A stretch of DNA of 64,000 nt from Semisulcospira habei. Taxonomy: Eukaryota > Mollusca > Gastropoda > Semisulcospiridae. Location of the stretch: assembly GCA_036245525.1 (NCBI GenBank), contig BTPG01000004.1, positions 231,715,891 to 231,779,890 on the forward strand, read 5' to 3'. The position numbers were made by a program, and so were the translations under genes. Every line of letters starts with the position of its first letter. The stretch's first letter is position 1. Under the pieces are notes generated by a model. That model was given only the letters and a program-made list of their open reading frames with translations, searched no databases and was not told the DNA's origin. Positions 2 to 42,131 of the stretch are shown in pieces.

Positions 2-676
2 CTATCAACGCTTGAGCCGACTGAAACAAATGTGATGACTAAAACAACACTTGTGCCTGATCCACAGGTGACAGCTGTGCCAATTGCATCAGATAAAACA
101 TTACCAGCAGACGCATTCAGATTAAATAATATTACAGAAGCTTTAAAATATTTGGAAAGTGAAGAGGCTAGGTACTCCAGATGTAAAAGGAGGTATAAGT
201 CAGTATTTAATTCTGTTCAAAACACTTCTATGGCTATTGGTGCAGTTTCAGCTGGATGTTCTGTAGGGGGTATTGTTCTGTTTGCCACAGGAATTGGAAG
301 TTTGGCTGGAATTGCAATTGAGGGTGTTAGCGTTGCTACATGCCTGGCTTGTTTTGGTTTGGAAGCCTTAAACAAAAGGTTTCACACAAAATTACAGAAA
401 CATGAAGCATTGAGTACGCTGGCTGGTGCAAAGCTGAGCAGTATGAAACTTATTATCAGTAAGGCATTAAACGATAATTATATTGATGACGAAGAATTTA
501 AGCGGGTCCAGGATGATTTAAATAATTACAAGAAACAAAAATCTGAAATACAGAATAAGATGCGTAGTCAATCACCCGTGAATGTTGAAGAACTTAAGGC
601 TAGTTTTTTAGCAGAGGGAAAAAGGATAGGGTTACAGGAAACCACAGAAAAGCTACACAATCTTTTAAACAAATAA
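2..676 (+). CDS. Late protein X of virus-like element, copy C (5' end outside window)
   Basis: This frame is open from the window edge, and an internal ATG lies at 32. It encodes a protein of at least 224 residues that recurs at 24423-25008 (minus) and 41344-42013, each time at the end of the same viral gene block. A hydrophobic stretch at about residues 70-115 (rich in G, A, V and I) looks like one or two membrane segments. A charged, helical C-terminal half follows (EEFKRVQDDLNNYKKQKSE region). This is the only copy without an internal break. I recognise no catalytic motif and give no function; a structural or accessory membrane protein of the element is an inference from context. The microORF at 703 follows after 26 bases. 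Confidence 0.75.
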   Translation, partial: LSTLEPTETNVMTKTTLVPDPQVTAVPIASDKTLPADAFRLNNITEALKYLESEEARYSRCKRRYKSVFNSVQNTSMAIGAVSAGCSVGGIVLFATGIGSLAGIAIEGVSVATCLACFGLEALNKRFHTKLQKHEALSTLAGAKLSSMKLIISKALNDNYIDDEEFKRVQDDLNNYKKQKSEIQNKMRSQSPVNVEELKASFLAEGKRIGLQETTEKLHNLLNK

Positions 677-702
677 AAATCAGATTTGGTAATCATTTAT
701 TA

Positions 703-795
703 ATGTCATACACTTCACAGAAAAATGCCATGCCACTTACACCACTTGTGCCTGATTATTTAGCCCCATCTGCACCACCCCCAGAGTACTTCTGA
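703..795 (+). CDS. Late-domain microprotein, copy C (30 aa)
   Basis: A 31-codon frame starts 26 bases after the X stop codon, in a different frame. It begins MSYTSQKNAMP and ends APSAPPPEYF. The tail holds PSAP, a P[T/S]AP-type motif that in known viruses binds TSG101/ESCRT-I, overlapping PPEY, a PPxY motif that binds WW domains of NEDD4-type ligases. The same tail occurs in the other two copies at the same place, and most nucleotide differences between them fall at third codon positions. The reading frame and motifs are seen directly; a protein product and ESCRT/NEDD4 recruitment are inferred. It could instead be the last exon of a longer product. Confidence 0.6.
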   Translation: MSYTSQKNAMPLTPLVPDYLAPSAPPPEYF

Positions 796-9789: not shown

Positions 9790-12233
9790 GTCTCTTGGCT
9801 TGACTTCGCGAACGAAGATTTTATAGGAGTTGCCCACGACGTCTGCAGGCTTGTTCGTGGCTGCGGAGGCCAATCCGAGACAGGCAGGTTCGACCGCAGT
9901 GGCTGCAGGGGAAGGTATGGCCGGGGTTCTGAGCTGCGGCATCTCTGTTTTTTCTCCTGAGCCGCTTGTCCTTAAGGCTAACTCTGTGAGAGTCCTCAAA
10001 GGAGACAGCTGCCTTGTAAATGGTGGAGCGCCAGGTGTCACGGTCCGCAGCAAGCGAAGACCAATGGTGGTGGTCGATTTGGCAGGCACTAAGTGACTTC
10101 TTGAGACAGTCTTTGTATCTCTTCTTTGGTGCCCCTCTGTCACGGTGTCCAGTAGCAAGCTCGCCGAACAGGGTGATATTTGGTAGGCGATGATCCTCCA
10201 TCCTGGAGACATGCCCCGCCCAGCGGAGCTGTGTCCGCAACAGCAAAGCCTCGATGCTCACAGTTTCAGCCTGTTCAAGGACCTCGACGTTGGTGACATA
10301 GTCACTCCAGTGAATGCCCAGGATGGTACGCAGGCAGCGCTGGTGGAAGCGTTCGAGGAGTCGTAGTTGGCTGCGGTAGGGGGCCCAGGACTCGGAACCA
10401 TACAGCAGGGTGGTGAGGACCACAGCTCTGTACACGCTGATCTTGGTGCCTGTTTTCAGCTGTTGATTGTGCCACACCCGCTTGAAAAGTCGCCCGAAAG
10501 CGCTGTTCGCTTTTGCCAGCCTGCTGTCAAGCTCCTTGTCCAGCTTGGCGTCCGACGTGATAATGCAGCCAAGGTAAGTAAACTGGTGCACTGACTTTAG
10601 TTCAGACTCGCCAATGGTGATGTGAGGAGGGCGATACACTGTCTTGGGTGCCGGCTGATGGAGGACCTCTGTCTTTTTCAGACTGACCTCGAGTCCAAAG
10701 AGCTGGGCAGCATCTGCGAAGCAAGACGTGATGCGCTGCACGGCTCTCTCTGTGTGTGCAACGAGGGCAGCATCATCAGCAAAAAGCAGCTCACGAATCA
10801 GTTGGTCTAGGGTTTTCGTGTGGGCCTGCAGTCGTCTGAGGTTGAACAGGCTGCCATCGAGACGATACCTGATGTACACTGCATCGTCATCATCAAGGTC
10901 CACTGTGGCCTGCTTCAACATCATGCTAAAAAAGATGGTGAAGAGGGTCGGTGCCAGCACGCAGCCCTGCTTTACGCCGTTGAGAATAGGGAATGGTTCT
11001 GAGAGGTCATTGTTGAGTCTGACCTGGCCTTGCTGGTCCTCGTGTAGCTGGACAATCATGTTGAGGAACTTTGGGGGACAGCCAAGTCGCTCCAGGATCT
11101 GCCACATGCCTTGCCTGCTCACAGTGTCGATCGCTTTTGTTAGGTCGACAAATGTTACGTACAGCCCTTTGTTCTGCTCGCGGCACTTCTCCTGTAGCTG
11201 TCTCAGCACAAAGACCATATCGGTGGTGCTCCTGTTTGCTCTGAAGCCACACTGGCCCTCTGGGAGTTGGTCTTCAGCGATGGCAGGTACCAGCCGATTC
11301 AGGAGCAGCCTTGCAAGGATTTTCCCAGCAATGGACAGCAGGGTAATTCCCCGATAGTTGGAACAGTCAGACTTCTCGCCTTTGTTCTTGTACAGGGTGA
11401 TAACGACTGCATCACGGAGATCTTTTGGTAGTGTTCCTTCCTCCCAGCAGCAGAGAAAGAGGTCATGGAGCTTGTTGTGCAGTGCTGTGCCTCCATGTTT
11501 CCAGATCTCTGGCGGTATTCCATCAATGCCTGCTGCTTTGCCACTCTTGAGCTGGTGGATGGCTGTGAGGGTCTCTTCAGCGGTGGGCGGTTCGTCCAAT
11601 TCAACCTTTACTGGGAGGTGTGGGATTTGTATGACGACTGCTTCTTGAACAGTGCGCTCAGCGCTGAAGAGGCTCTGAAAGTATTCCGACCAGCGGTTCA
11701 AGATGGAGGTATTATCTGTGAGGAGTGCCTGGCCATTCGCGCTTCGCAGGGGACTTTGTACCAGGTGCCTGGGGCCATACACTGCTTTCAGTGCTTCGTA
11801 GAAGCCCCTGTAGTCACCATTGTCAGCACAAAGCTGGGTCCTCTGTGCAAGTCTGGTCCACCACTCATTCTGGAGATCTCTGAGCTTGCGCTGGAGACTG
11901 CTGCAGACGAGGCGGAAGGCAGACTTCTTCACAGGGCAGGAAGGCTGGGCTAGGTGGGCCTGATGGGCGGCTCTTTTTTTTGCTAGGTGTTCCTGGATCT
12001 CTACATCGTTTTCGTCAAACCAGTCTTTGTTCTTCTTTCTGGCGAAACCCAAGACTTCTGCAGAGGATTTTGTAATAGCATTTTTCAGTTGTTCCCAAAG
12101 TGTTTCAGGGGAGGAGTCTACTGGGTCCGCTGTGTCTACTGGGTCCGCTGTGTCTTTGAGCCTGCGCTGTAAATCTGTCTGAAAGGCGGCTTTCACATCG
12201 TCACGCTGAAGGCTGGCAACATCAAGCTTTTTC
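9790..12233 (-). mobile_element. LINE A1, 5'-truncated RTE-like non-LTR element
   Basis: It is inserted in the LINE E endonuclease. The 79 bp at 9711-9789 are repeated, identically by eye, at 12234-12312, a very long target-site duplication. The element's 3' terminus (left) has the CTTCG-TTCG-CGAAG hairpin also seen in copies at 18998, 39410 and 54425. The 5' end is truncated within the segment between endonuclease and RT. Confidence 0.85.
9821..12196 (-). CDS. LINE A1 reverse transcriptase ORF (791 codons, 5'-truncated element)
   Basis: One long open frame without stops. RT blocks in order: LKSGKAAGIDGIP (around residue 215), YRGITLLSI, GFRANRSTTD, VDLTKAIDT (catalytic D; the usual KAFD phenylalanine is isoleucine), NGVKQGCVLAP and LLFADDAALVAH with the catalytic DD pair (around residue 470). 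The C-terminal end has a zinc-finger-like CSHCGRTC...H...C. A direct duplication DTADPVDTADPVD sits near the N-terminus. The endonuclease is missing in this copy but present at 59.7-60.4 kb. It is probably immobile because it is truncated. Confidence 0.85.
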   Translation of the reverse strand: MKAAFQTDLQRRLKDTADPVDTADPVDSSPETLWEQLKNAITKSSAEVLGFARKKNKDWFDENDVEIQEHLAKKRAAHQAHLAQPSCPVKKSAFRLVCSSLQRKLRDLQNEWWTRLAQRTQLCADNGDYRGFYEALKAVYGPRHLVQSPLRSANGQALLTDNTSILNRWSEYFQSLFSAERTVQEAVVIQIPHLPVKVELDEPPTAEETLTAIHQLKSGKAAGIDGIPPEIWKHGGTALHNKLHDLFLCCWEEGTLPKDLRDAVVITLYKNKGEKSDCSNYRGITLLSIAGKILARLLLNRLVPAIAEDQLPEGQCGFRANRSTTDMVFVLRQLQEKCREQNKGLYVTFVDLTKAIDTVSRQGMWQILERLGCPPKFLNMIVQLHEDQQGQVRLNNDLSEPFPILNGVKQGCVLAPTLFTIFFSMMLKQATVDLDDDDAVYIRYRLDGSLFNLRRLQAHTKTLDQLIRELLFADDAALVAHTERAVQRITSCFADAAQLFGLEVSLKKTEVLHQPAPKTVYRPPHITIGESELKSVHQFTYLGCIITSDAKLDKELDSRLAKANSAFGRLFKRVWHNQQLKTGTKISVYRAVVLTTLLYGSESWAPYRSQLRLLERFHQRCLRTILGIHWSDYVTNVEVLEQAETVSIEALLLRTQLRWAGHVSRMEDHRLPNITLFGELATGHRDRGAPKKRYKDCLKKSLSACQIDHHHWSSLAADRDTWRSTIYKAAVSFEDSHRVSLKDKRLRRKNRDAAAQNPGHTFPCSHCGRTCLSRIGLRSHEQACRRRGQLL

Positions 12234-17786: not shown

Positions 17787-20700
17787 ATGACGGACAATGC
17801 CCAAAGCTTAAGAAACGTGTTTCACACAACAGACTTGCCTATATCCAACACTTACAGTGTCTATGAATCGATAGAAAGATCCTTTTTGGTCATACAAGAT
17901 AACCTTCTTTCTGGTAGTGTAAAGATTCAGATTGTTGCTAAAATAGAATATACCAGGGTAGATGGTGAAGTGATTGTTTCGTATATCTCGACAAGACAAC
18001 ACACAGTTAATTCAAAAGAGGAACTGGAAAAAGTGTTTAGAGAAAGACTGTTGCCTGACTTCTAGAAGCAATTGACAGAGCAAAAATGCAGGGATCTGGC
18101 TGGCACAAAGGCCGTGTACATGAACTGCAACTGAAGCAGTCAAGATATTATCCTATATTAGGCAAATCATGGTTGCCACTACCAATTGAGTTTGCAGACA
18201 AAAAGGCTGTCGTCAATGTTCAGAACAAAGATAATTTCTGTTTCATGTAGTGTGTGCTTGCCAAACTGCATTTTGTAAAAACAAAACCTGAACGTGTATC
18301 TAACTACACCAAATTTGAAAATGAACTCAACTTCAGTGGCATAGATTTTCCTGATAAGGTGGAGGATATAGATCTGTTTGAAAAACTAAATCCTGGGATA
18401 TCTGTGAATATGTATGTATGGGATAATGAGTCTGAGAACAAGTTACAACCAATTAGAGTGTCACCAATTGCCCCAACCTACGGTCAGTCAGAAGATAAGC
18501 ATGTTGATATGTTACTAATAAGCTCTGGCTCAGGTGATAACTTTCACTACACAATTATTAGGAGTATGTCACGACTAATTCACAACCATGTATCAAAACA
18601 CAATGGCAAATAGGAAGTATGTAAAAGATGCTTACAAAGGTTCTCCTCTATAAAAGTGGCACATAAACATACCCTGCACTGTAGGTCAGCTGATGACATT
18701 CAAACAATACTTAGGTATCCTTGATCCTGGTAGCAAGGTATATTTCAAGAACTATGTTAATCAGCAAAAGCTGCCGTTTGTAGTGTATGCTGATTTTGAA
18801 TCACTGGTTGTGCCATATGAGCATCCTGTTCCAGAATCATTACCAAAGACTGTAAAATTGAGTGATCAAGTGGTGTGTTCTTTCGGATATATTCTTGTTA
18901 GGTCAGATGGCCAGCATACAGAACCTGTTATCTACAGAGGTGAAAATGCAGCAGCTGAGTTTTTAACAGAAATGAGACAACTGTATAGTCAGGTAGTCTT
19001 CTTCTTCTTCTTGGCTGGACTTCGCGAACGAAGATTTTATAGGAGTTGCCCACGACGTCTGCAGGCTTGTTCGTGGCTGCGGAGGCCAATCCGGGACAGG
19101 CAGGTTCGACCGCAGTGGCTGCAGGGGAAGGTATGGCCAGAGTTCTGAGTTGCGGCATCTCTGTTCTTTCTCCTGAGCCGCTTGTCCTTAAGGCTAGCTC
19201 TGCGAGAGTCCTCAAAGGAGACAGCTGCCTTGTAAATAGTGGAGCGCCAGTCAGGTAGTACATTATTTGGAAAAGTGTCAGATGTCTTTGTTGATGACAG
19301 AAGAAGACAAACAGAATTTTGATGCAGCAGTGATGTGTTGGATTTGTGAACAACCTTTAGGAGGTTGTGATAAAGTTCGTGACCATGACCACATAACTGG
19401 GCGTTACAGAGGTGCTGCCCATTGTGATTGTAACTTGAAATTAAAAATAGATCCCAAGGCATATAAGTTGCCTATCTTTTTCCACAATCTCAAGGGGTAT
19501 GATTCACATATTATCATGCAGGCTGTGGATGAGTCTTACAAAAAAATTAGTTGTATTGCCCAGACAACTGAGAAATACTTGACTTTTAGGCTGGACAATA
19601 AATTAGCATTTTATGACTCCATGCAACATTTGTCTTTAGGGCTTGCTAGTCTTGCAGAAGGACTGACTGAGTATCCAATAACAAGTAAATATTTTGAGCC
19701 AGACTTGATTAAGAAAGGAGTGTATCCGTACGAGTACATCAGTGACTGGGTTGTGTTCGAGGAAAGGAGACTGCCACCAAAAGAGAAATTTTATTCCACA
19801 CTAAATGGTAAAGGTATTTCTGACTCCGATTACCAGCATGCACTTTATGCATGGGGTAAACTAAGGTGTGAAACGATTGGTGATTACCATGACCAATACT
19901 TGAAAGCTGATGTTTGCTTGCTTGCAGACGTATTTGAAAGTTATCGTGAAAAGGGTTTGTTACACTACAGACTTGACCCTGCTTGCTACATAACTAGTCC
20001 TGGCATGACATGGGATGCATTTTTAAAATCCAGTAAGATATCTATAGACCTGTTGTCGGATCATACGATGGGTGAAATGGTGGAACGTGGATTGAGGGGA
20101 AGCATTAGTATTGCAGCGAACAATTATGCCAGAGCCAACAATAAATATCTGGACGACCTTGGGTTTGACCCCTCAAGGTCAAGGTCATTCATTACGTACT
20201 TGGACGCTAACAATTTGTATGGGTTCGCGATGTGTGAATTATTGCCCTTGGAAAACTTGTGTCTGTATGATTTGTCACAGTATGACATAACACAGTTAAC
20301 AAATTATATTATGACTCATGGCCGGAATGATGCAAAGGGTTGGATCTTTGAAGTAGACCTGGAGTACCCACACCACCTACATGATTACCACAATGATTAT
20401 ATCCGTTGGCTGTTGAGAAAATGAGTATGACGGGTAAAAAAGTAGACACCAAACTTGTGCCAAATTTGAATGACAAATTCAATTACGTTTGTCACTTTCG
20501 CTTGTTACAGTTTTACATCAGACATGGGTTAGTACTAAAGAAAGTTCACAGGGGTATTCAATTTGAGCAAAGTGCTTTCATGAAAGATTATATAATGAAG
20601 AACACAACATTGCGTGCGAGGGACGGCAACACTGCATTTGACAAAGACTTCGTTAAGCTTATGAACAATGCCTGTTTTGGCAAGACTATGGAAGATCTTC

Positions 20701-21496
20701 ATCACCGCAAAGATGTGAGACTGGTCACAACTGAATTGGGTGCAATTAAACTTCCAGGCAAGCCACAGTACACAGGGTACAAGGAGTTTCATTCATCATT
20801 GTATGCAGTGTCACTCAAAAAAAAGATTGTCAAACTGGACAAGCCAGTATTCATTGGTATGGCAATACTCGAGTTATCAAAATTATTGATGCTTGAATTT
20901 TATTATGATTACTTCAAACCAAAGTATCCTGAGTGCCGTCTGCTATACACTGACACTGACCCTATGATCATTGACGTGCCTACTGAAGACTTTTATGCAG
21001 ACATGAAAACAGAGTTACATATGTATGACACGTCTGACTACCCTATGGATCACCCGCTGTTTAGCACACAAAATAAGAAAGTGCCTGGTAAGTTTAAAGA
21101 TGAACTAAATGGTGTGCCAATAGTTGAGTATGTTGAACTGAGATCAAAAATGTATTCTATACTGCACCAGAAGGGCAGTCAGTCCAAAGCCAAAGGTATC
21201 AAGAAAACAGTGATAAAAAATAAAGACATCCGTCATGAACACTACAAGCAAGTATTAGATGGAGAACTAATGCCTGATTATCCAAACAAGACACTGAGGT
21301 CAAATAGACACAATATTGAAATGATCCAAACACATAAAAATCTCTAGCAGTAGGGGACACAAAACGAGTGTTTCACACTAAGGAAAAGGCTTATGCACAT
21401 GGGCATTACAGGCTCAAGTTATCTGAAGAAATAGCTGATAAACTGGTTGATGAACTAATCAATGAATTAGTTGATGAAATGATTAAAAATGCGTAG
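17787..21496 (+). pseudogene. POLB: Family-B DNA polymerase of virus-like element, heavily broken
   Basis: A protein-primed-type PolB (DNA_pol_B_2 family) that would replicate the element. N-terminal region 17787-18613, then a C2HC zinc motif (CKRC...H...C, about 18615-18660). The exonuclease motif YADFES is at about 18786 and the family's HNH-like cluster CWICEQ...DHDHITGRYRG at about 19338. YLDANNLYG is at about 20200 and the catalytic YTDTD at about 20945, followed by P where S is usual. Breaks: a frameshift near 18060, TAG at 18249 where the family normally has tryptophan, a stop at 18611, a frameshift near 18690, the LINE A2 insertion at 18998, and frameshifts near 20400 and 21345. It is not functional. 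Confidence 0.85.
18998..19248 (-). mobile_element. LINE A2, 3'-end fragment inserted in polB
   Basis: Matches the last roughly 250 bp of LINE A, including the zinc-finger end of its ORF and the terminal hairpin. A tail of (GAA)n lies at 18998-19010. Flanked by the direct repeat AGTCAGGTAGT at 18987-18997 and 19249-19259. Confidence 0.85.
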
Positions 21497-22447
21497 CATT
21501 GTCTGGAGGAATAATTTGTAATTCTTCTCTGACAAATGCCCTTTGTGGGGCAGGCTCAGAGATATAATATATTGATGCGTTAGTGCCGGGGACTATTTTT
21601 TTTATATTGTGGACAGACGTAGACCAAATTGGATCAGTTGCCCTACGTTTGACGTCATTCTTGGCTTCACCGGGTTGATACAAATATCTGACCTGTTTTG
21701 TAAACAAGCTTGTGTCTGGAGGTGTTGTTTTTATTTCTGACCCTGATAGCATTGTTTTTAATTTAATAGCATCAACAGGTTTAGGGTGACCTTCATTATT
21801 CATTGCTTTTATCACAGATGGTAATCTCTTAACCCACTCAGTGTTCCGGGTGTCATGCATGAGTTCCTTAGAATACTGATAGCTGAAAAGTCTCTCTAAT
21901 AATTGTTTGTTAAAGTTCTCAACAATTGCCTGTGATCTGTGCATGCCCGGTATGCCTCGCCGCACTAGCACTCCATGCTTTGCAAATAACTGATTAACAG
22001 CGCCTTTAAATTCAGACCCGTCATCAACCTGCACAAGCATGGGAAATTTTAAAGGACCACGACTATATATCTTTGTTAGTGCAGTGGCCACTGTTACAGC
22101 ATTTTTGTCAGTTATGGGTTCAGCGTCCTTATACCTTGAAGCTATGTCGACAACAGTTAATGCATACTTGTATCGTTTCTTTCTTATTGTATCATGCGGC
22201 AAGAACAGAAGATCCATTTGATGGGTGTCATTATGGAATAGTGTTTACAAAATGAGGTCTTGTTATTTTTTTTGGAGCAGGAAGATATATTTGCAAAATA
22301 GCCTGTTTTTTTGAGCCACTGTTTTATTTGGTCGAGTGTAACATCACTGCCCACAGCTACATGTAATTTTTCTATTGCGGTTTTTCCTTTCCAGTAACCA
22401 ACAGGAGAGTAATATATTTTTGATAGTTTTGCTCCGACTTCGATCAT
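21483..22447 (-). pseudogene. INT: Retroviral-type (rve) integrase, one frameshift
   Basis: A Polinton/Maverick-type DDE integrase, expected to insert the element into the genome. The N-terminal part (22447 to about 22240) has KIYYSPVGYWKG and an ITLDQIKQWL-like segment typical of this family. After a frameshift near 22235, the core shows MDLLFLP (first D), VQVDDGSEF (second D) and RSQAIVENFN (E), then VRYLYQPGE and RATDPIWS near the C-terminus. It converges on polB, the 3' ends overlapping by about 14 bp. The start overlaps the preceding gene's end. Confidence 0.85.
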
Positions 22448-24271: not shown

Positions 24272-24328
24272 TTAGTAGTACTCTGGTGGTGGAGCTGATG
24301 GCGTCAATTGAGCAGGCATAAAAGGCAT
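24272..24328 (-). CDS. Late-domain microprotein, copy A (shortened start)
   Basis: From the ATG at 24328 the frame encodes 18 residues, ending LTPSAPPPEYY. The ATG used in copies B and C is TTG here, so only the C-terminal part has an ATG. PSAP and PPEY are intact, and relative to the other copies most changes in the motif codons are synonymous (TCA/TCT, GCT/GCA, CCA/CCC). Position is again directly downstream of X. Confidence 0.5.
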   Translation of the reverse strand: MPFMPAQLTPSAPPPEYY

Positions 24329-24422
24329 GACATTGTTTTGCAAAGAGTTTGACAAATTTATTAAACAATTGATTTTTACTTGCTTAAAAGTCCTTGAACA
24401 TTTTTTATAGTTTTTTCCATCC

Positions 24423-25008
24423 CTATTTTTTTCCTTCCTCGAAAAAAGATTTCTTTAGCTCTTCAATGTTTACGGGTTTATTACGCATCTTATTTTGTAT
24501 TTCAGATTTCTGTTGTTTGTAATTCGTCAAATCATCCTGGACTCTCTTAAATTCGTGTTCATCAATTTTATTATCTTCCATAGCCTTACTGATAATAAGT
24601 TTCATACTGCTCAGCTCAGCTGCTGCTAGCGTACTCAAGGCTTCATGCTTTTGCAACTTTCTATGAAATTTTGTTAAGGGCTTTCATACCAAAGAATGCC
24701 ATGCATGTGGCAATGCTAACACATTCAATAGCAATTCCTATGGCACTTCCCACTCCCGTAGCAAACAGAGCTAAACCAGTGGTAGATAATCCGACTGAAA
24801 CCACACTCACGACCATTGATGTGTTGTGTACAGAATTGAAAACTGTTTTGTAATGGCATTTACACCGGGAGTATTTTGCTTGTTCTACTTCCAAATACTT
24901 CAACGCTTCAGTAATATTTATTAAACGGAATGAGTCTGCCTGTAATCTTTCATCACGCACAATAGGTTCAGGTGGTTCAGGTGGTATTTGAGGATACAGT
25001 GGTAGCAT
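24423..25008 (-). pseudogene. Late protein X, copy A, frameshifted
   Basis: Two frames (25008-24661 and 24656-24423) cover the same protein as at 2-676, broken near 24660. The N-terminus MLPLYPQIPPEPPEP is proline-rich with a YPxI sequence. A hydrophobic region GLALFATGVGSAIGIAIECV and the charged C-terminal half follow. Confidence 0.7.
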
Positions 25009-26647: not shown

Positions 26648-28018
26648 ATGGAATTTAAATCACCAACCATTACCACTACAAATGCATTTCAATTTAACGT
26701 GGATGCCAAATATAATGTCGCCCCTACTTATGAACAGAAAATAATTCAACTAAATCAACTCAACATAGCTGTAAGCGAACAAGATTTATTTCAAGTCAAA
26801 GTACCCAACCCTTTTGATCATTACCTAAACCCTCCAATAACAGACGATGCTACTGCAAGAAAGTGGTCTTCAAGTCCACTACAGATGTTTCAAAACCAAC
26901 TCAACTTTGCTATACTGTGTAATACTACAGGATGCGGCATTTCTTTTACAGACCATTTGAATCACTCAAGCAAACTGATTAGGTCTATGTACCGTTTCCA
27001 CACTTATTACCAGCTTACACGTATACTGTCAGAACTGCATACCCCACTACCAACTGAATCTAGTTTCAACAGGTATAACAACCCCATGGATATGAAAGCG
27101 TTTGAACGGATTTGTAATGAGTTTAACATAAGCCCCCGTGCCGGGTATGACTTCACACAAAATCTTGATGATCACAAAGGCATGGGTACATTGTATTATG
27201 CTATGAGTCACAGACAATACCCACAAGATTATTACCCTGGTTACACTTCATTCTCATCAAAATCACAAGTATGGTTAGGATCAATAGAACAGAAACAGTC
27301 TAATGCCTGGATCACATTTATCTTAGACAGGAGTGACGGGTTTACTCAAGCAGGAGTCGAGCGCGTAAATGAGTCTATCAGAACATATGTCTGGTGTTTA
27401 CTAGGTGCACAATCATTAACAAAATCAAACATTTTGAATGGAAAGTTTGAATCTCAAAAACAGTTTCTTGCAAACCTGGAAGATTCAATTAACTCAACAG
27501 TTGATCTCCCGTCAAGCATACAGCGCTATCAAGACGTTCTCAGATATGCGAGATCAAAAGTTGACTTTGTAGTTGGCATCGGGTTATACATGTTACCATC
27601 TGATCTTCAACTCCAAATGGGAACAATAACAAATTATAATAATGAAATAATAGTTGCAGGTGTTGGTCAAAAACTTGGTCTCAATCAATCTGTAAACTTA
27701 GGAGGAACAACTGCGCATGTACAGTTGTTAAAACCATTACAGGCGGTTACTTCCCCTGCCCCGGTAGTAACGCAAGATGTAATACTCCAGTCCCCTGACT
27801 CCACACATGATTCCGAGAGAATAGCATTGACAATAGGTCTCACTGGAGTAGTAGTGGTTACTTCCCCTGCCCCAACACCCATACAGCCAGTAACGCTAGT
27901 AAAGCCAGTAACACCCAACACATCGCTACCAACCCCTGACACACATGAGTCAGAACGAACAGCAGTGACAATAGGCCTCACTGGAGTAGGTATATTACTT
28001 CTTTACCTGTTTCATTAA
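26648..28018 (+). CDS. Large tail-anchored late protein Y, copy A
   Basis: 456 codons, open throughout. A long soluble body is rich in aromatics and Q/N (HRQYPQDYYPGYTSFSSK around residue 200; RVNESIRTYVWCLLGAQSL around 245). A T/P/V-rich linker follows, then a single C-terminal hydrophobic anchor ending GVGILLLYLFH. The anchor-proximal segment (HDSERIALTIGLTGV / HESERTAVTIGLTGV) is duplicated here but single in copy B. It overlaps Z tail-to-tail by 24 bp. No homology to a named family is recognised; attachment or membrane-associated virion protein is a guess. Confidence 0.65.
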   Translation: MEFKSPTITTTNAFQFNVDAKYNVAPTYEQKIIQLNQLNIAVSEQDLFQVKVPNPFDHYLNPPITDDATARKWSSSPLQMFQNQLNFAILCNTTGCGISFTDHLNHSSKLIRSMYRFHTYYQLTRILSELHTPLPTESSFNRYNNPMDMKAFERICNEFNISPRAGYDFTQNLDDHKGMGTLYYAMSHRQYPQDYYPGYTSFSSKSQVWLGSIEQKQSNAWITFILDRSDGFTQAGVERVNESIRTYVWCLLGAQSLTKSNILNGKFESQKQFLANLEDSINSTVDLPSSIQRYQDVLRYARSKVDFVVGIGLYMLPSDLQLQMGTITNYNNEIIVAGVGQKLGLNQSVNLGGTTAHVQLLKPLQAVTSPAPVVTQDVILQSPDSTHDSERIALTIGLTGVVVVTSPAPTPIQPVTLVKPVTPNTSLPTPDTHESERTAVTIGLTGVGILLLYLFH

Positions 28019-28667
28019 ATAACCCACCATTAACCCTCCTACTATCACCAAAAAGACCCAAACATTCTCTGCCATAAATCCTACTACCTTTGCTGCAGTA
28101 CTTATCATCCAACTCACAAGTGAGCCTAAAATGACAGGCAGTGCATCCATCGCTTTTACAGCCAATTTCTTAAGTAAGTCTGATATATGAGACAATTGTT
28201 TCTTTACCCACGACTGTAAATCTTTTGGATCAGTTGGTGGTGCTGGTGGGGCCGGAGCGCTACCCCCTGGTCCTCCCGTTACAGCTAACACAACAGTACT
28301 GATAATAAATCCAAGAGCAGTAATTAAACTCGCAATTGTGATACCCTGCTCTCTGAAAAGTGTTTTCAATCTCTCAGCCAACGTTCTGTCTTCGTGAAAT
28401 ATTTTCAGAATAGTTTCCCTAATTCTGTTAACTTGTGTTTTTAGTTTTCTTTTTCCCCAATTTCAATCACTTCTAGTCGCGCTGATCTTTCTATCTGCAA
28501 ATCATTTAATCTGTGTTGTATTCTTTCTTTTATTTCAATGTCAACATTCCCATTGTCTGCTATAGCTAGTTTTTTCTTTTTCTCTTTCTATGTGTTTATC
28601 AAGCTCACCTAGTTTGGCTACATTATTCACCAACTCACCTCTGATTGACTGCAGTGTTTTATCCTGT
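27995..28667 (-). pseudogene. Late protein Z, copy A, N-terminus lost at inversion junction
   Basis: The C-terminal two thirds of Z (compare 29435-30667): a coiled-coil segment with frameshifts around 28570-28390, then ITIASLITALGFIISTVVLA, a proline linker and the C-terminal hydrophobic region ending GYLMKQVKK. The sequence upstream of codon 'DKTLQS' is replaced by capsid gene sequence at about 28668. Confidence 0.7.
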
Positions 28668-29394
28668 CATAATAAATCGGCAGTTTTGTCTTGTACTGAT
28701 TTTGAATGAGAGTAGCTAAATAATCATGTGTGACAATTTCATATTCCAAAGAAATGTTAGAGATCTTATATGTTGCATTGGGATCAGATGATTTAATAAT
28801 TTTGGAGTAGTCATTGAAAGTTAGTTCAAAACTCAAACGGTCATTCAGTGCTCCTTGGTAATAAGGCAAATGTGCTGTTAGAATTTCAAACTCAAGTGGA
28901 ATGTAAAATCTGGTTCCATATGTTTCAGCCATTATAACGTCTTTGGCTACTGTAGTTGTTTTATCTCCGGCATCGATTCGAAGTTTACCAACATTATCTG
29001 ACTGTATGCCTTGGTAAATACGATCCTCTCGTTCTTCTGTTGTGAGCCATAAATCTTTGTAACAGTAGAACACATCAGCATCATCAAGACTAAACACTTC
29101 CTGTCCTTCAAGTTTTACTTTAATAGTTCTAACAATTGCTCTGCCTAGATTGTTAACTAGTGTTCTGTTCACATCTGTGTCTGATGAAAGTTCGATATTA
29201 AATGCAAGTCGTGCAGTACCAGGAACAATAACGTCACTGGGTCCTAGGTTTGGAAACTTGACTGTAAGTGTTTGGTTCTGGTCTATGGTACTTGGATTGT
29301 TAGTGATGACGATTGATTGTCTAATGCCCTTAACACCAAGAGGCTCACGTTGTTTTCTGTATGGGTCTAACTTTGATCCGTAAGACTGTGTCAT
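28668..29394 (-). pseudogene. MCP: Major capsid protein (double jelly-roll hexon-like), 3'-truncated
   Basis: Starts MTQSYGSKLDPYRKQREPLG. The pattern NNPSTIDQNQTLTVKFPNLG, LARAF-like RLAFNIEL, FSLDDADVFYCYKDLWLTTE and AETYGTRFYIPLEFEIL is characteristic of Polinton/adintovirus-type major capsid proteins, which assemble as pseudo-hexameric trimers. About 240 codons remain; the C-terminal part is missing because the sequence switches to the antisense-equivalent Z copy A at the 28668 junction. It is divergent from Z copy B. Confidence 0.8.
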
Positions 29395-29434
29395 TTTTAT
29401 TATGCACAATAAAAAATAATAAATTAATAAAACA
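29395..29434. promoter_or_regulatory. Divergent promoter MCP/Z
   Basis: 40 bp of A/T-rich sequence (TTATTATGCACAATAAAAAA) between the MCP start (minus) and the Z start (plus). Very short bidirectional spacing, as at J/Y. Confidence 0.4.
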
Positions 29435-30667
29435 ATGTCAGCAGGAGGATTTAATCATGGTGATTTTGAAATGGATGTCATGGATGCCTCAGATACCAGT
29501 ATCACAGATATGACTGGTATGGTAACTACTTCTAGTATGTATCATGAACTGTTAAAAGACAAAGTAAACTCATTTTATGACAGTGTTGGTGCGCGCCCAG
29601 ATGTAATAGATCCTAATCAGTTTGAATATGATAAAGGACACTTATTTGTAAATACAGACAGAGGGAAAATAAATCTAACACATAAAAATAACACTGCTAA
29701 GTTTAGAGCTTTAAGTACAATTAAAGGCGAAGTCGGTGGTAACTCTGGGTTGGTAAGGTACCTTGGAAATTGAGGGTCTCCTGTCACGCCAAGACTGGTT
29801 AGTGCGCTCCATGACACGCAAACAAGATTACCAACAGGGCAAGAAATTGAAATGGCACCTGTAACAAGCCTGCCAGAAATAGCAAACACAGTGATACAAG
29901 AAACTTCATTTACTGAAGGACAAATAAATGACATTATGAAAACAATAGATGATCCACCTTTGTCAATGCGGGAGATTATGGGCTTGGATAAATCACTGCA
30001 GTCAATAAGAGGTGAGATGGTAAATAATGTAGCCAAACTAGGTGAGCTTGATAAACACATAAAACGTGAAAAAGAAAAACTGGCTACAGCAGACAATGGA
30101 AATCTTGACACAGAAATGAAAGAAAGAATACAACACAGATTAAATGATTTGCAGATAGAAATATCAGGGCGGTTAGAAGTGATTAGTATTGGGAGGGAAA
30201 AACTGAAAACACAAGTCAACAGGATTAGAGAAACTATTCAGAAAATACTTCACGAAGACACAACTCTGGCTGAGAGACTTAAAACACTTTTCAGAGAGCA
30301 GGGTATCACAATTGCTAGTTTAATTACAGCTCTTGGGTTTATTATCAGTACTGTTGTGTTAGCTGTCTCCGGCGGTGGTGGGGGTCCAGCCCCGGCACCG
30401 CCAACCCCGGGTCCACCAGCACCTCCAACAGACCCAAAAGATTTACAGACATGGGTAAAGAAACAACTGTCTCACATATCAGACTTGCTTAAGAAATTGG
30501 CTCTGAAAGCAATGGACGCTTTGCCTGGTATAATAGGCACAGTTGTCAGTTGGCTTATTACTACAGCAGCAAAGGTAGTAGGGTTTATGGCAGAACATGT
30601 ATGGGTCTTTCTGGTGACAGTAGGAGGGTTAATGGTGGGTTATTTAATGAAACAGATAAAGAAGTAA
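29435..30667 (+). pseudogene. Late protein Z, copy B, full length with one in-frame TGA
   Basis: A 411-codon frame broken only by TGA at 29771-29773. The N-terminal third is acidic and threonine-rich (MSAGGFNHGDFEMD...). A coiled coil lies at about residues 190-270 (LGELDKHIKREKEKLA, RLNDLQIEISGRLEV), a hydrophobic segment at about 290-312, a G/P-rich linker (PAPAPPTPGPPAPP), and a second hydrophobic region at about 360-405. No known family is recognised. Coiled coil plus membrane segments suggests a membrane-inserted structural protein (inference). The 3' end overlaps Y by 24 bp. Confidence 0.65.
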
Positions 30668-31734
30668 AACCCCTAACCCCGTTAGGCCTATTACCAATGC
30701 AGTTCTCTCTGACTCATGTGTGTCAGGGGTTGGTGTTGGTGTTACATCTTGCATTACTGTTGGGGCTGGGGCTGGGGTCGGGGGTGTTACCGGAGGTGTC
30801 TGTAATAATTTTAATGACTGTACATGTGTGGTTGTGGCCCCCAAGTTCACAGATTGATTGAGTCCTAATTTTTGACCAACACCTGCAACAATGATTTCAT
30901 TATTATAATTTGTTATTGTCCCCATTTGGAGTTGAAGATCAGACGGCAACACGTATAACCTGATGCCAACTACGAAGTCAACTTTTGATCTTGCATATCT
31001 GAGTACGTCTTGATAGCGTTGTATGCTTGATGGGAGATCAACTGTTGAATTAATTGAATCTTCTAGGTTTGCCAGAAACTGTTTTTGTGCCTCGAATTTG
31101 CCACTCCCGTTTAAAATATTTGATTTTGTTAGTGATTGTGCTCCTAGTATACACCAGACATATGTTCTGATAGACTCATTTACGCGCTCGACTCCTGCTT
31201 GAGTAAACCCATCACTTTTGTCTAAAATAAATGTGGTCCAGGCATTAGACTGTTTCTGTTCAATTGATCCTAACCAGACTTGTGATTTTGACGAGAATGA
31301 AGTGTAGCCAGGGTAGTAATCTTGAGGGTATTGTCTGTGACTCATAGCATAATACAATGTACCCATACCATTGTGATCATCAAGTTTTTGTGTAAAGTCA
31401 TACCCGGCACGGGGTCTAAGACTTATGTTAAATTCATTACAGATGCGTTCAAATGCTTTCATATCCATGGGGTTGTTAAAACGGTTGAAACTAGATTCAG
31501 TGGGCAGTGGTGTATGAAGTAATGACAGTATTCTTCTTAATTGGTAATAAACATGAAAACAATACACAGATCTAATCAGTTTGTTTGAGTGATTTAAGTG
31601 GTCTGTGAATGAAACACCGCAGCCTGTAGTAGAACACAGTATAGCAAAGTTAAGTTGATTTTGAAACATCTGTAGTGGACTTGAAGACCACTTTCTTGCA
31701 GTAGCATCGTCTGTTATTGGAGGGTTTAGGTAGG
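30644..31734 (-). pseudogene. Late protein Y, copy B, main part (N-terminus displaced by LINEs)
   Basis: Matches residues from about 63 to the end of Y copy A, ending GLGVLLLYLFH with a single tail anchor. The missing N-terminus lies 7.7 kb away at 39441-39617, separated by LINE A3 with LINE B1 inside it. The 5' part of the ORF beyond 31734 is LINE A antisense and not part of Y. Confidence 0.8.
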
Positions 31735-32367
31735 TGTTCAATCTCAGACGACTGCAGGCCCACACGAAAACCCTAGACCAACTGATTCGTGAGCTGCTCT
31801 TCGCTGATGACGCTGCCCTCGTTGCACACACAGAGAGAGCCTTGCAGCGCATTACGTCCTGCTTCGCAGATGCTGCCCAGCTCTTTGGACTTGAGGTCAG
31901 TCTGAAAAAGACAGAGGTCCTTCATCAGCCGGCACCCAAGGAAGAGCATCGCTCTCCCCACATCACCATCGGCGAGTCCGAACTGAAGTCTGTACACCAG
32001 TTTACCTACCTTGGCTGCATCATCACGTCAGACGCCAAGCTGGACAAGGAGCTGGACAACAGGCTGGCAAAAGCGAACAGTGCTTTCGGGCGACTATTCA
32101 AGCAGGTGTGGCACAATCAACAGCTGAAAAAAGGCACCAAGATCAGCGTGTACAGAGCTGTCGTCCTCACCACCCTGCTGTACGGTTCCGAGTCCTGGGC
32201 CCTCTACCGCAGCCAACTACGACTCCTCGAACGCTTTCACCAGCGCTGCCTGCGTATCATCCTCAGCATTCACTGGAGTGACTATGTCACCAACGTCGAG
32301 GTCCTTGAACAGGCGGAAACTGTGAGCATCGAGGCTTTGCTGCTGCGGACACAGCTTCGCTGGGCGG
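31735..32367 (+). mobile_element. LINE A3, 5'-truncated, first part
   Basis: LINE A RT from FNLRRLQAHTKTLDQ through LLFADDAALVAH to LRTQLRWAE, open in frame. Interrupted after TCGCTGGGCGGAG by LINE B1; the rest is at 39002-39440. Confidence 0.85.
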
Positions 32368-33233: not shown

Positions 33234-34718
33234 ATGGATAAAACAAAAAAACCAAAACTAGCACAGAAACGACACATAGCCACCGACATTGAACATGACA
33301 GTGATTCAGACTGTGAGGAAGCGACGCCTCAGGCGTCGGCCGTCTGGCCTCGCTTCCTCATTGTCCATAGCAAGGTGAAAGAGAAACCAGTTACCAAGCT
33401 GCATCCTTTTCTGGTGGGGGAGACCCTCAGGAGCCGTGTTGGCAGGCCTGATGCCCAGCGCCTCAGGTCTGGTGACTTGCTGGTGGAGTGCAGTACTCGG
33501 GCACACTCCAGCGGGCTACTGGGGCTCTCTTCCATCGGAGACACTCCTGTGGAAGTCACACCCCACAAAACTATGAATTCGTCAAGAGGCGTAATCAAAG
33601 ATCAAGCTTTCGCAGAAATGTCAGAAGATGAACTTGTAAGGAACCTTAAGTCTCAGGGGGTGACTTGCGTCAGGCGCTTTGCTTCCAAGCGAGGTGGTGG
33701 GGAGATCCGTCTCCCTACCATCATCCTGACGTTTGGCACCCCCACCCCTCCTACTACCATCTGGAGAGGTTACTACTCCCTGAGAGTGAAAAAGTACGTC
33801 CCTCTCCCCCTCCGGTGCTTTAAGTGCCAAAAGTATGGCCATGGGCAGAAGACATGCCGTCGGGCAGAGGCTTCATGCGCCCGTTGCACTAGGCCCGGAC
33901 ACTCTGCTGAGTCCTGCACAGCCACCCCCCTGTGTGTGAATTGCCAGGGGGCGCATATGGCTTCGGATAAGAAATGCCCTCGTTGGATATCCGAGTGCAA
34001 GATTCAGCAGGTGCGTGTGGAGAAGGGGCTGTCCTTTCTGGATGCCAAAAAACTGGTTGAAGGCCCTGGTGCAGCTGCGGCTGCCCCAACCTCCAACACC
34101 TCTGTGTATACTTTTAGTGCAGCGGTGGCAGGCAAGCGCCCCACCAAAGACTTTTCATGTCAGACCCCAACTTCTTGGTTGGGGGCGGAGCCTCGGCTCA
34201 TCTCGCCCCTGGAGAGTAACCCTCCTCCGGTGGTGACAAGGAGCCAGGGAACGCAGAAGGCGGACACTGCCGGTCCGGTTGTGCCGCCTTCTGTTGCCCC
34301 TAAGCCTCAGCCCCCACCCAAACCTGTTAGTCAGTCAACTCCAAAGGCTTCTGGCTCTGGTCAGCCTTCTAAGGCCGCTAACTCTAGCGGCAGGAACGCT
34401 GCCCAGGACCAGAAGTCTAAGAAATCTATGGGACCGCTGTGCGCACAGGCCCAGAAGGGGAACACAGATGTCCCCCTTCAAAACAAATATGCTGCACTGG
34501 AGGAGCAGATGGAGGGAGTGGAAGTTGTTGTTGCTGATGCTGCGGCAGCTCCACCCCCTTCTTCTCCGAAGAACCAGAGGAGGCCCGGGAGCCGGCCCCC
34601 CTCTGTTTCTTCAACTCCTTCCAAGGTAAAGGAAAAAGGGGGGACAACTCCTTACCCCCAGATAAGACTTAATCATGGACTCTTTGCTTCAGTGGAATTG
34701 TCATGGTTTTCAAGCTAA
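33234..34718 (+). CDS. LINE B1 ORF1 (Gag-like, three zinc knuckles)
   Basis: 494 codons, intact. An acidic N-terminus (EHDSDSDCEE) and an RNA-binding-like middle are followed by zinc knuckles CFKCQKYGHGQKTC, CARCTRPGHSAESC and CVNCQGAHMASDKKC (residues about 195-250), then a P/S/K-rich tail. It would bind the element RNA. It overlaps the ORF2 start (34675) by about 40 bp in another frame. Confidence 0.9.
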   Translation: MDKTKKPKLAQKRHIATDIEHDSDSDCEEATPQASAVWPRFLIVHSKVKEKPVTKLHPFLVGETLRSRVGRPDAQRLRSGDLLVECSTRAHSSGLLGLSSIGDTPVEVTPHKTMNSSRGVIKDQAFAEMSEDELVRNLKSQGVTCVRRFASKRGGGEIRLPTIILTFGTPTPPTTIWRGYYSLRVKKYVPLPLRCFKCQKYGHGQKTCRRAEASCARCTRPGHSAESCTATPLCVNCQGAHMASDKKCPRWISECKIQQVRVEKGLSFLDAKKLVEGPGAAAAAPTSNTSVYTFSAAVAGKRPTKDFSCQTPTSWLGAEPRLISPLESNPPPVVTRSQGTQKADTAGPVVPPSVAPKPQPPPKPVSQSTPKASGSGQPSKAANSSGRNAAQDQKSKKSMGPLCAQAQKGNTDVPLQNKYAALEEQMEGVEVVVADAAAAPPPSSPKNQRRPGSRPPSVSSTPSKVKEKGGTTPYPQIRLNHGLFASVELSWFSS

Positions 34719-37700
34719 CTTTGAGGAATTGCGTCTTTTAGTCAAGTTCTATAACCCCTCAGTAATATCTCTTCAGGAGACTTACCTGAAGACTTCTGAC
34801 CCTGTGTCCTTTAATGGTTTTAATGTTATACATAAAGGCTCTGATTCGGAGAGGTGCTCGGGTGGAGCGGCTCTTCTCATTAGTAGCCAAATTTTATGTA
34901 GCCCCGTTAGCATCGACACCTGTCTTCAGGCTGTCGCAGCTCGGGTTACCTTACAGAAGACCATAACCATATGCAGTATTTACCTGCCACCATCACTGCG
35001 GCTCTGTAGCAATGATATTTTTAACTTAGTAGATCAACTGCCCCCTCCCTTTATTCTCATGGGGGATTTTAACGGTCACGCTCACCTTTGGGGTAGTGAC
35101 CACTATGATGGCAGAGGTCAGATGTTAGAAGATGTTTTTTCTCAACTTAACCTGTGTGTCTTTAACGATGGCTCACCTACATACTCTAACTCAGGTTCTG
35201 GATCTAGTTCTGTTCTAGACCTCACTGTGTGTGATCCTTCTCTCATGCTGGACTTTGACTGGAAGGTTCACGATGACCTGTGTGGTAGTGACCACTTCCC
35301 AGTAGTCCTGTCATCGGTCAGCTGTGAGGAGGATTCACCGGTGGGGCGCTGGAATCTCAAAAAAGCTAACTGGTCTCTGTTCGCCTCTCTCTGTCAGTCT
35401 CGTCTTGCAGAGGAGGTGGTCATGTCCGCTAAAGAACCTGTTTCTTGTTTTACTTCTATTTTGTTGGAGGTTGCAGGTGAAGCCATCCCTAGAACTTCCA
35501 CATCACTCCCTCGGAAGCCGAGAGTACCATGGTTCAATGAAGAGTGCCGCAAGGCCCAAACAATGCGCAAATCTGCTCAGCGACGTGCTTTTCGTAATCC
35601 GTCGCAAGCAAATATTTTAACATTTAAAAGACAGCGGGCGAAAGCCCGTTACATTTTTAAACGCGAACGCCGTGCTTCCTGGAGACGCTTCGTCTCATCT
35701 TTATCTTCTAGGACTCCATCCCAAAAAGTCTGGAAGGCTGTTCGAAGAATTAGGGGCGGGAGTGGCTCGGCTTCTGTCGGCCATCTTAGAGATGGTGCCA
35801 GTTTGGTCACAGATAAAAAGTCTGTGGCCAATTTGCTTGCCTCCACCATTGCCCATAATTCTTCAACAGAGCATTATTCACCTTTCTTCCAGAGAGAGAA
35901 GGAGAAGCGAGAATCTTGTACTTTTTATTTTATATCGGATAATTCGGAAGACTATAATGCCCCTTTTACGTTTTCAGAATTGCAGCAAGCCATGCAGAAA
36001 TGTACTGACTCTGCTACTGGATTAGATACCATCCACTATCAGCTCCTAACACATCTGCCTGAGGATTCACTCCTTGTACTTCTCAAGGCCTTTAACCATA
36101 TCTGGATAACCGGTTTTTTTCCGCCATCTTGGCGCCAGGCTGTAGTTGTGCCAATTCCCAAGCCGGATAAGGATCCTTCCGACCCGGGCAACTACCGGCC
36201 AATAGCTTTGACATCATGTTTATGTAAAACTATGGAACGCTTGGTCAACGCCCGACTGGTGTGGCATCTTGAGTCACAGGGTCTCATCACAGACCTCCAG
36301 TGCGGTTTCCGACGCTTCCGTAGTACAACTGACCATCTAGTTCGCTTTGAGTCTTTTATCCGAGATGCTTTTATCAACAAGCAACATGTCTATGCAATTT
36401 TCTTTGATCTTGAAAAGGCATATGACACTACCTGGAAGCATGGTATAATGTCTGATTTGTCGGACATGGGTTTTAAAGGGCATCTGCCCGTTTTTATTCA
36501 CAATTTTTTTTCCAACAGGTCGTTCCATGTCCGTGTGGGCTCCACCCTCTCCGACTCCTTTGAACAGGAGATGGGTGTCCCGCAGGGCAGTATTCTATCT
36601 CCTGTTTTATTTAGCATTAAAATAAATAACATTGTAAAGGCCGTCAAGGATGATTCTGAATGCTCTTTGTTTGTGGACGACTTTGCTTTGTGTGCACGAG
36701 GTCGAGGACTTGCGTCCCTTGAGAGGCGCTTGCAGCTGTGCGTTGATCGCATCCAGGGGTGGGTGTCTCTCAATGGATTCAGGTTCTCGCCCTCCAAGAC
36801 AGTCTGTGTGCATTTTACTAACCAGACGAAATTTTTTCCAGAACCTAGCCTGAGCATTGCTGGAGTGCCAATTAAGGTGGCCGAAGAGGCAAAGTTTTTG
36901 GGGGTCATCTTTGACAAAAGATTGACCTTCTGCAACCATGTTAACTACCTTAGAACCTCTTGTCGGAAGGCCCTCGACATTCTTCGTGTCGTTGGTCGTA
37001 CTGACTGGGGTGCAGACCGCATTGTCTTACTTCGACTGTACCGGGCCCTTGTTCGGTCCAAACTGGATTACGGCTCTGTGGTATATGGCTCGGCTTCAAA
37101 GTCTGTTCTACCCCACCCGGGTCTGCCCTGGGGGACTTGGGTGGGGTTAGGTATTTTTTAGTTCCCAGGGTCACCCTGGTCAGCCCCACAGGGTGGGGTT
37201 TTCTCTCTATTCTGGGGCATGTGTTTCTGTCTACCCGAGGTCCATTCACCTGTATTTGCCTTTTTTAAACTCTCCCTACTGTCTGCACTGCCTGTAGCTC
37301 TTGATATTGGATGTGTGTTGCTAAATGGTCTTAGCTTTATTTAGGCCCCATGTGTTAGGTTTATTTAATGTGTTTGACCGGCTGGCGACATACATTCAAT
37401 GTTCTGTTTAGTTGGTTGTTTTTTTTTCCACAAGCAGTGCAGGCACGTCCTGAGAAAGCCTTGTTGCTGTCGGGACGTTAAGCAATGTACAATCAATCAA
37501 TCAATCATTCAAAGTCTGTTCTACAACGTCTGAACACAATTCACCATCAAGGTCTGCGCATATGTCTGGGGGCCTTCAGGACATCTCCAGTTCCTAGTCT
37601 GTATGCCGAGGCAGGGGAGCCTTCTCTCAGGCTCCGCCGCATCCGCCTCATGCTCAGCTACGTTCTGAAGCTGAAGGCCCATCCAGACAATCCTGCCTAT

Positions 37701-39440: not shown

Positions 39441-39617
39441 GTAATGATCAAAGGGATTTGGTACTTTGACTTGAAATAAATCTTGTTCGCTCACAGCTAT
39501 GTCAAGCTGATTTAGTTGAATTATTTTCTGCTCATAAGTTGGTGCGACATTGTACTTGGCATTCACATTAAATTGAAATGCATTTACAGTGACACTTGTT
39601 GGTGATTTAAATTCCAT
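39441..39617 (-). pseudogene. Late protein Y, copy B, N-terminal fragment
   Basis: Begins MEFKSPTSVTVNAFQFNVNA and matches residues 1 to about 60 of Y copy A, stopping at VPNPFDHYL where LINE A3 inserted. Confidence 0.8.
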
Positions 39618-39642
39618 CCTTCTTTTTTATGAGATAATAAAA

Positions 39643-40407: not shown

Positions 40408-40427
40408 TTTTATTTTTGTTTATAAAA

Positions 40428-41343: not shown

Positions 41344-42013
41344 ATGGTAAAATTCTATCCAATACTACCGACGCTTGAGCCGACTGAATCAATTGTGACG
41401 ACTAAAACAACGCTTGCGCCTGATCCACACGCGACAGCTGTACCAATTGCACCAGATAAAACATTACAGGCAGACGCAAACAGATTAAATAATATTGCAG
41501 AAGCAATTAAATATTTGGAAAGTGAAGAGGCAAGGTACTCCAGATGCAAAAGGAGGTATCAGACCGTTTTCAATTCTGTACAAAATACTTCAATGGCTAT
41601 TGGTACAGTTTCAGCTGGTTGTTCTGTTTGGCACAGAAATCGGAAGTTTAATTGGAATTGCAGTTGAGGGTGTTAGCGTTGCTACATGCCTGGCTTGCTT
41701 TGGATTGGAAGCCATAAACAAGAGGTTTCACACGAAATTACAGAAACATGAAGCATTGAGTACTTTGGCCGGTGCGAAGCTGAGCAGTATGAAACTTATT
41801 ATCAGTAAGGCATTAAATGATAATTGTATTGATGACGAGGAATTTAAGAGAGTCCAGGATGATTTAAATAACTACAAAAAACAGAAGTCCGAAATACAAA
41901 ATAAAATGCGTAGTCAATCTCCCGTCAATGTTGAAGAACTAAAGGCTAGTTTTTTAGCGGAAGGAAAAAGATCGGAGTTCAGGAAACCACAGAAAAACTA
42001 CACAATCTTTTAA
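41344..42013 (+). pseudogene. Late protein X, copy B, frameshifted twice
   Basis: Starts MVKFYPILPTLEPTES, with a YPxL sequence at residues 5-8. A small deletion in the hydrophobic region shifts the frame near 41630 (frames 41344-41667 and 41495-42013), and another shift near 41975 changes the C-terminus relative to the copy at 2-676. Confidence 0.75.
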
Positions 42014-42047
42014 ACAAATACAAATCAGATTTGGTAATCGTTTATTA

Positions 42048-42131
42048 ATGTCATACACTTCACAGAAAAATGTCATGCCGCCTAACTATTTAACCCCATC
42101 AGCTCCACCACCACCACCAGACTATTACTAA
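42048..42131 (+). CDS. Late-domain microprotein, copy B (27 aa)
   Basis: Begins MSYTSQKNVMPP and ends TPSAPPPPPDYY: PSAP followed by PPDY (PPxY). Same position after X as in copies A and C. The proline run is two residues longer than in the others, yet both motifs are kept. Confidence 0.6.
   Translation: MSYTSQKNVMPPNYLTPSAPPPPPDYY

Follow-up and report, generated by a model that had tools for sequence, protein, structure and literature searches.

A probable −1 frameshift extension of a Polinton gene in Semisulcospira habei would carry overlapping PSAP and PPxY motifs

Gene X of the Polintons in the gastropod Semisulcospira habei is followed by a short stretch in which a PSAP motif overlaps a PPxY motif. 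The conserved unit is probably not a dedicated microprotein but a −1 frame whose entry point is a T TTT TTA heptamer in the reading frame of X. Comparison of the copies makes it fairly likely that X has a second isoform, produced by −1 frameshifting, whose PSAP and PPxY would recruit TSG101 and NEDD4-type ubiquitin ligases and which would also bear an ALIX-type motif in its leader. In the proposed mechanism, X would be a helical-hairpin Polinton protein with the ALIX-type YPx[LIV] in a disordered leader. Close to the 3' end of the gene, at T TTT TTA, some of the ribosomes on X would move back by one base and continue into a basic linker that closes with L-x-PSAPPP[ED]Y[YF]. With the TSG101-type and NEDD4-type motifs added in this way, the extended isoform would bring in ESCRT-I and a ubiquitin ligase for membrane scission or trafficking, most likely in egress.

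Gene X and the motif frame in three Polinton copies

The window analyzed here is a stretch of 64,000 nucleotides (contig BTPG01000004.1, positions 231,715,891 to 231,779,890, forward strand) that holds three copies of X, named A, B, and C. The name X is merely the label of an earlier, sequence-only reading of this DNA; identity with the 'PX' of the literature was ruled out, as PX denotes the penton (PMC4028283). The copies of X and the Polinton genes of copy A are located as follows:

2..676, + strand: gene X, copy C; open frame, its first codons just left of the window
24376..25008, − strand: gene X, copy A; frame broken; leader MLPLYPQI
41344..42021, + strand: gene X, copy B; frame broken; leader MVKFYPIL
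21483-22217, − strand: retrovirus-like integrase, copy A (Pfam rve, 37.5 bits; cutoff 32.6)
19267-20424: piece of a B-family polymerase, copy A (DNA_pol_B_2, 24.2 bits, just below the Pfam cutoff of 25.8)

A complete X start, MVNFYPQL..., was read in genome copy L001. X sits 3' of a 299-aa frame (40416-41315 in copy B), and in copy A it precedes a 173-aa frame and then the integrase. With a retrovirus-like integrase and a B-family polymerase piece, copy A has a gene pair typical of a Polinton/Maverick element. Two frames, 28627-29409 (−) and 39589-40407 (+, copy B), which we take by eye to resemble double jelly-roll capsid or penton proteins, had no Pfam match and no PDB sequence match. For vertebrate Mavericks, PMC8097293 includes a description of core genes and accessory regions.

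Other parts of the window have features of their own. The frames 26648-28018 (+) and 30644-31852 (−) are related, about 85% alike in DNA (26822-27864 versus 30661-31732), and have a hydrophobic C-terminal stretch, ESERTA..IGLTG.G.LLLYLFH; Pfam returned no match for the former. Long frames that resemble LINE retrotransposons by eye, at 9821-12196 (−), 34675-37161 (+), 46347-49391 (+), and 50961-53120 (+), are interleaved with the Polinton copies, and many offset self-matches mark tandem-repeat arrays at 61034-63088 and 63571-64000.

The sequence-only reading had proposed a conserved microprotein directly after X, and the short frame with PSAP overlapping PPxY is present in all three Polinton copies where it had been placed:

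703..795, + strand: reported frame, copy C; reads MSYTSQKNAMPLTPLVPDYLAPSAPPPEYF, then a stop; here taken as the 3' portion of the −1 extension
24272-24328, − strand: reported frame, copy A; reads MPFMPAQLTPSAPPPEYY, then a stop
42048-42131, + strand: reported frame, copy B; reads MSYTSQKNVMPPNYLTPSAPPPPPDYY, then a stop
766..789, + strand: PSAPPPEY, PSAP and PPxY overlapping, copy C
24278..24301, − strand: PSAPPPEY, copy A
42096..42125, + strand: PSAPPPPPDY, copy B

The length given for the peptide, 27-30 aa, does not suit copy A, where it has 18 aa counted from its own ATG. Across all six reading frames, the window has three occurrences of P[ST]AP with PPxY following within 6 residues, solely at copies A, B, and C; the pattern was absent from 60 order-3 Markov windows of equal length, and the form P[ST]APP{1,3}xY occurred once in these 60. 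The triple occurrence exceeds chance by far.

Most changes between the copies had been described as silent. This holds for the motif, from PSAP to the last codon (silent to replacing codon differences of 4:2 for C-B, 3:1 for C-A, and 1:1 for B-A), but not for the whole reported frame (5:5, 5:6, and 4:3, respectively). In the seven motif codons that are left when the variable x codon is excluded, 4 of about 6.3 synonymous sites vary among the three copies, and none of some 14.7 nonsynonymous sites does (Fisher, 0.0025). Values of dN/dS by NG86 for the reported frame are 0.091/0.490 (C-B), 0.193/0.732 (C-A), and 0.152/0.635 (B-A); for X itself they are 0.235/1.04 over 85 codons (C-A) and 0.067/0.540 over 42 codons (C-B). 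Ahead of its ATG, the motif frame remains open and reaches back into X, which the earlier reading had overlooked. The observation of that reading is confirmed, and its interpretation was half right.

The slippery heptamer and the open −1 frame

Conservation was assessed in 37 copies of the same genome that were chosen by similarity to X, the motif not being used (X-first copies). The X homologue P0003, used as query, gave 150 scored matches out of 9,388 first-look candidates, and the 30 best loci were read; P0005 gave 150 scored matches out of 8,357, from which 8 rows were picked for variety and 7 were usable (L111 was cut). The motif window is recognizable in all 37 copies and the motif is intact in 28. 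Because these copies were picked by X alone, the proposed late-domain peptide is well supported at the sequence level. Among the P0003-picked copies, the motif lies within 300 nt in 21 of 30, and its phase is −1 in 19 of these 21, L090 and L103 being out of phase. The motif has a pN/pS of 0.154 in the 37 copies, with decay after insertion included, and the region between the X stop and the motif one of 0.58 (43 distinct open tails); a motif value of 0.082 comes from tails pre-chosen for an intact motif. The dN/dS check proposed in the sequence-only reading thus finds constraint on the motif codons, both here and in copies A, B, and C, and P[ST]AP and PPxY are kept by selection, as in a late-domain protein.

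Upstream of the motif, the following features lie within X or extend from it:

604..610, + strand: slippery heptamer T TTT TTA in the X frame, copy C
24441..24447, − strand: slippery-type heptamer TTTTTTC, copy A
41950..41956, + strand: heptamer TTTTTTA, copy B
604..795, + strand: −1 frame of X, copy C; basic linker followed by the reported frame

A TAG at 601-603 closes the −1 frame of copy C directly before the heptamer; past it, the frame is open to the TGA at 793-795. An X-frame TTTTTTA is found at the same site of X in 33 of the 37 X-first copies (26/30 and 7/7), a classical slippery heptamer of the form X XXY YYZ in the zero frame. The −1 frame is open from the heptamer site to the intact motif in 25 copies (18/30 and 7/7); six more reach the same end with the motif altered or cut (L081, L092, L093, L095, L107, and L108), and six do not reach it (L090, L094, L098, L099, L100, and L103). 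A heptamer in phase and a −1 frame kept open downstream are marks of a −1 frameshift gene, and we infer frameshifting in X and expression of the extended protein.

The heptamer itself is conserved. When third bases only are counted, as in all heptamer and X figures of this kind, synonymous difference is 0.0 in the three heptamer codons and 0.30 in the X body (924 pairs less than 90% identical). The heptamer's first codon is AGT in C-type copies and TCT in A-type copies, so that its T is preserved across unlike codons. In the X tail past the heptamer, synonymous difference is 0.41, i.e., not lower than the 0.30 of the body, so that the −1 residues overlapping X show no constraint and those after the heptamer are at most a linker.

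There is also selection for an open −1 frame. A T before AA, AG, or GA makes a stop in the −1 frame, and in this position T-ending codons make up 5/37 distinct states in the X tail and 84/175 in the body (Fisher, 5.5e-5), the corresponding counts at other codons being 28/73 and 212/456. X codons that would give −1 stops are avoided in the tail. When the copy C tail is recoded at random with synonymous codons, 3.8% of the versions keep the −1 frame open. Across 34 copies, the median length of the frame that spans the tail is 62 codons in −1 and 12 codons in +1; within the X body, the longest −1 frames reach a median of 44 codons and a maximum of 67, some equalling the tail frame in length.

These counts also bear on whether the tail is translated at all. 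An untranslated tail, inherited in common by the copies or retained for some other function such as RNA 3' end formation, has in its favor that the 55 nt past the stop are also alike between copies (44/53 aligned bases for C-A); the codon-wise constraint on the motif (pN/pS 0.154; Fisher 0.0025) and the avoidance of −1 stops nevertheless make this very improbable.

A second question is where, and by which machinery, the frame changes. The same X-PSAP-PPxY fusion might arise through polymerase slippage on the T6 run, or through slippage elsewhere than at T TTT TTA: the T run itself is conserved, and the −1 frame also reaches the motif from an in-frame T TTA AAC, 20 codons downstream of the heptamer (26/62 copies), and from an in-frame G GGA AAA, 4 codons downstream (22/64 copies), two sites present in many C-type copies. 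However, the exact heptamer is retained with its A and its phase, the other sites are absent from some subfamilies, and six T are few for polymerase slippage, which leaves this alternative unlikely. T TTA AAC and G GGA AAA could add slippage in the copies that have them. An in-frame T TTA AAT lies 28 codons upstream in 28 of 65 copies, and in those inspected there are −1 stops between this site and the motif. No strong RNA structure was found 3' of the heptamer in nine of ten chosen copies, folded pseudoknot-free, where z was for the most part close to 0; a single 60-nt stretch had a z of −3.1, and a weak double hairpin recurs in several copies.

The dedicated microprotein of the earlier reading would be a separate product of 18-30 aa, started at its own ATG by reinitiation, by leaky scanning, or on its own transcript. 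An in-frame ATG does occur in copies A, B, and C, 26 nt past the X stop in copy C, and MSYTSQKN is common to C-type copies. Its start codon, however, is not conserved, as A-type copies, along with several others, have a Leu codon in place of the ATG at 703. A usable Met is missing from 7 of the 25 open tails: there is none in the −1 tail of L084 (whose heptamer is non-canonical), L096, L104, L112, and L116, and the sole Met of L083 and L101 stands just before PSAP. A separate ORF, moreover, would not need a frame that is kept open and −1-phased through the X tail. Such a microprotein is therefore quite unlikely, and this half of the earlier claim is probably wrong.

Splicing of X to the tail was also considered and set aside, as no conserved GT donor was seen by eye at the X stop.

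Additional copies, L001-L028 and L059-L070, were fetched by their match to the 93-base frame and so cannot test its presence; among the motif-chosen C-type copies L001-L028, the −1 frame is open from the heptamer to the motif in 21 of 28. A count of 52/58 blends motif-chosen and DNA-chosen copies, and the totals of 91 located loci, 85 with the canonical heptamer and 57 whose frame is open to the strict motif, combine all sets and count some places twice (L080 is L033, and L092 is L037). The DNA evidence as a whole comes from one genome. X-like sequence is very abundant in it (9,388 and 8,357 first-look candidates for the two X queries), and most of the 150 scored matches per query have an open frame. 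Many P0005-query matches share one score, which suggests that X-like sequence spread recently.

Leader motifs and predicted fold of the X family

Altogether, 61 homologues of X (P0002-P0062) were collected in three protein searches, and an alignment of 23 X proteins has M1, Y5, and P6 nearly invariant. Leaders were compared in a set of 24 (P0002-P0023 with copies A and B; copy C was excluded, its leader being cut by the window edge). YPx[LIV] is present in 22 of them, with a mean of 0.75 and a maximum of 6/24 in 20,000 shuffles, and P[ST]AP in 8, with a shuffle mean of 0.21 and a maximum of 4. Without P0022, A, and B, the counts are 19/21 and 7/21. By sequence, the X leader bears a motif of the YPXnL late-domain type. 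All 65 leaders read in S. habei lack P[ST]AP, and 56 have [LFIM]YPx[LIV]; of the 61 homologues, 10 have P[ST]AP in the leader (P0005-P0009, P0020-P0022, P0032, and P0041). The relatives with a leader P[ST]AP carry it beside YPx[LIV].

PPxY occurs in one homologue of the 61, the distant P0031 (239 aa, 32% identical), which ends in ...HPPSPASPSAPPPYLV, whereas close relatives end in ...KKLAASESHSP. Its ending suggests a similar 3' peptide in another lineage. The end of P0031 contains PSAPPPYLV.

An AlphaFold2 model of X, built on the 23-protein alignment, has a mean pLDDT of 82 and a pTM of 0.60, with a low-confidence leader, and helices at 35-96 and 100-158, then at 163-188 and 195-223. X is thus predicted to be a helical hairpin with a disordered leader. 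The 19-residue windows with a hydropathy of at least 1.6 fall within 75-122, and X is probably membrane-associated; we infer insertion into the membrane. The best viral Foldseek matches of the model are three uncharacterized proteins of invertebrate iridescent viruses (A0A5B8RH66, A0A068QKD3, and S6DF61), with E values of 1.5e-6 to 5.4e-6 and 20% identity but an rmsd of 18-22, and helical hairpins match easily. Lower-ranked matches include giant-virus proteins, several of them labelled SLATT-type, and the PDB gave solely generic helical matches.

Known late-domain systems and the role of the extension

Late domains of the P[ST]AP, PPxY, and YPXnL classes are known from HIV-1 Gag, from HTLV-1 Gag, with PPPYEPTAP, and from EIAV (passages of PMC4880917). 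The same three classes occur in X, and PSAP and PPxY adjoin as in HTLV-1 Gag. X differs in that it is a Polinton hairpin protein, unrelated to Gag by annotation, that one of its motif sets lies on a probable frameshift extension, and that binding of its motifs is predicted. In tiger frog virus, a large DNA virus, three separate proteins bind Alix, Tsg101, and Nedd4 (passages of PMC4880917). This is likewise a DNA virus with all three motif classes; there, the motifs are spread over three proteins and binding has been shown, whereas in X they are read from the sequence of one gene.

U UUU UUA is the slippery heptamer of HIV-1 gag-pol −1 frameshifting. With gag-pol, X shares the heptamer, its phase, and an overlapping −1 frame that must remain open; in contrast, the extension of X is a short motif tail rather than an enzyme, and no strong stimulatory structure was found. 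For some adintoviruses, a possible −1 frameshift was predicted with KnotInFrame where the Penton ORF nears its 3' end (PMC11071296). Here too, an alternate C-terminus would arise through slippage in the same virus group, but the gene is another one, its tail is partly cysteine-rich, and the case of X comes from a comparison of many copies. The same source names a hypothetical 'membrane-active capsid core' class, some members of which have holin-like hydrophobic domains, and X may resemble this class (PMC11071296). PPxY, PTAP, late domain, and ESCRT are absent from the main text of PMC11071296.

The fusion could also be real and serve entry or endosomal escape rather than egress, in the manner of the PPxY of adenovirus protein VI. 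Adenovirus is a relative of the Polintons. Its entry makes use of a PPxY on this capsid protein, in connection with Nedd4 (PMC2841620), the membrane-active capsid core is a named hypothetical class in the virus group of X (PMC11071296), and X has a predicted hydrophobic hairpin. The likeness to protein VI is one of motif, a PPxY on a possibly membrane-acting protein; X adds PSAP and YPx[LIV], which would indicate ESCRT recruitment too, and its PPxY is on an optional tail. A role in entry seems somewhat unlikely to us, and it is compatible with, not exclusive of, the proposed frameshift mechanism. Egress is the preferred, though unproven, role of the extended X.

More tentatively, and as a possibility we would not yet favor, egress in an animal Polinton lineage may be retrovirus-like as a whole. 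The bulk of X would form membrane hairpins with an ALIX-binding leader, frameshifting would tag a set fraction of the molecules with the TSG101/NEDD4-binding tail, and budding would be ESCRT-dependent, enveloped or vesicular, with P[ST]AP shifting between leader and tail in evolution.

Among open-licence PMC papers, no literature was found that joins Polinton with late domain, PTAP, or TSG101, and none of the matches listed there joins Maverick/Polinton with ESCRT; Polinton with Nedd4 leads to a virophage review, a passage of which tabulates the share of virophage proteins with PPxY. The parts of the system are thus of known kinds, and no report of their combination in a Polinton was found. 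For annotation, X serves as a warning that ORF-based work on Polintons overlooks frameshift extensions. For the biology of these elements, the finding bears on whether Polintons make particles and on how such particles would exit cells; as all three late-domain classes occur on a single conserved Polinton gene, some of them apparently under the control of frameshifting, this can be tested directly.
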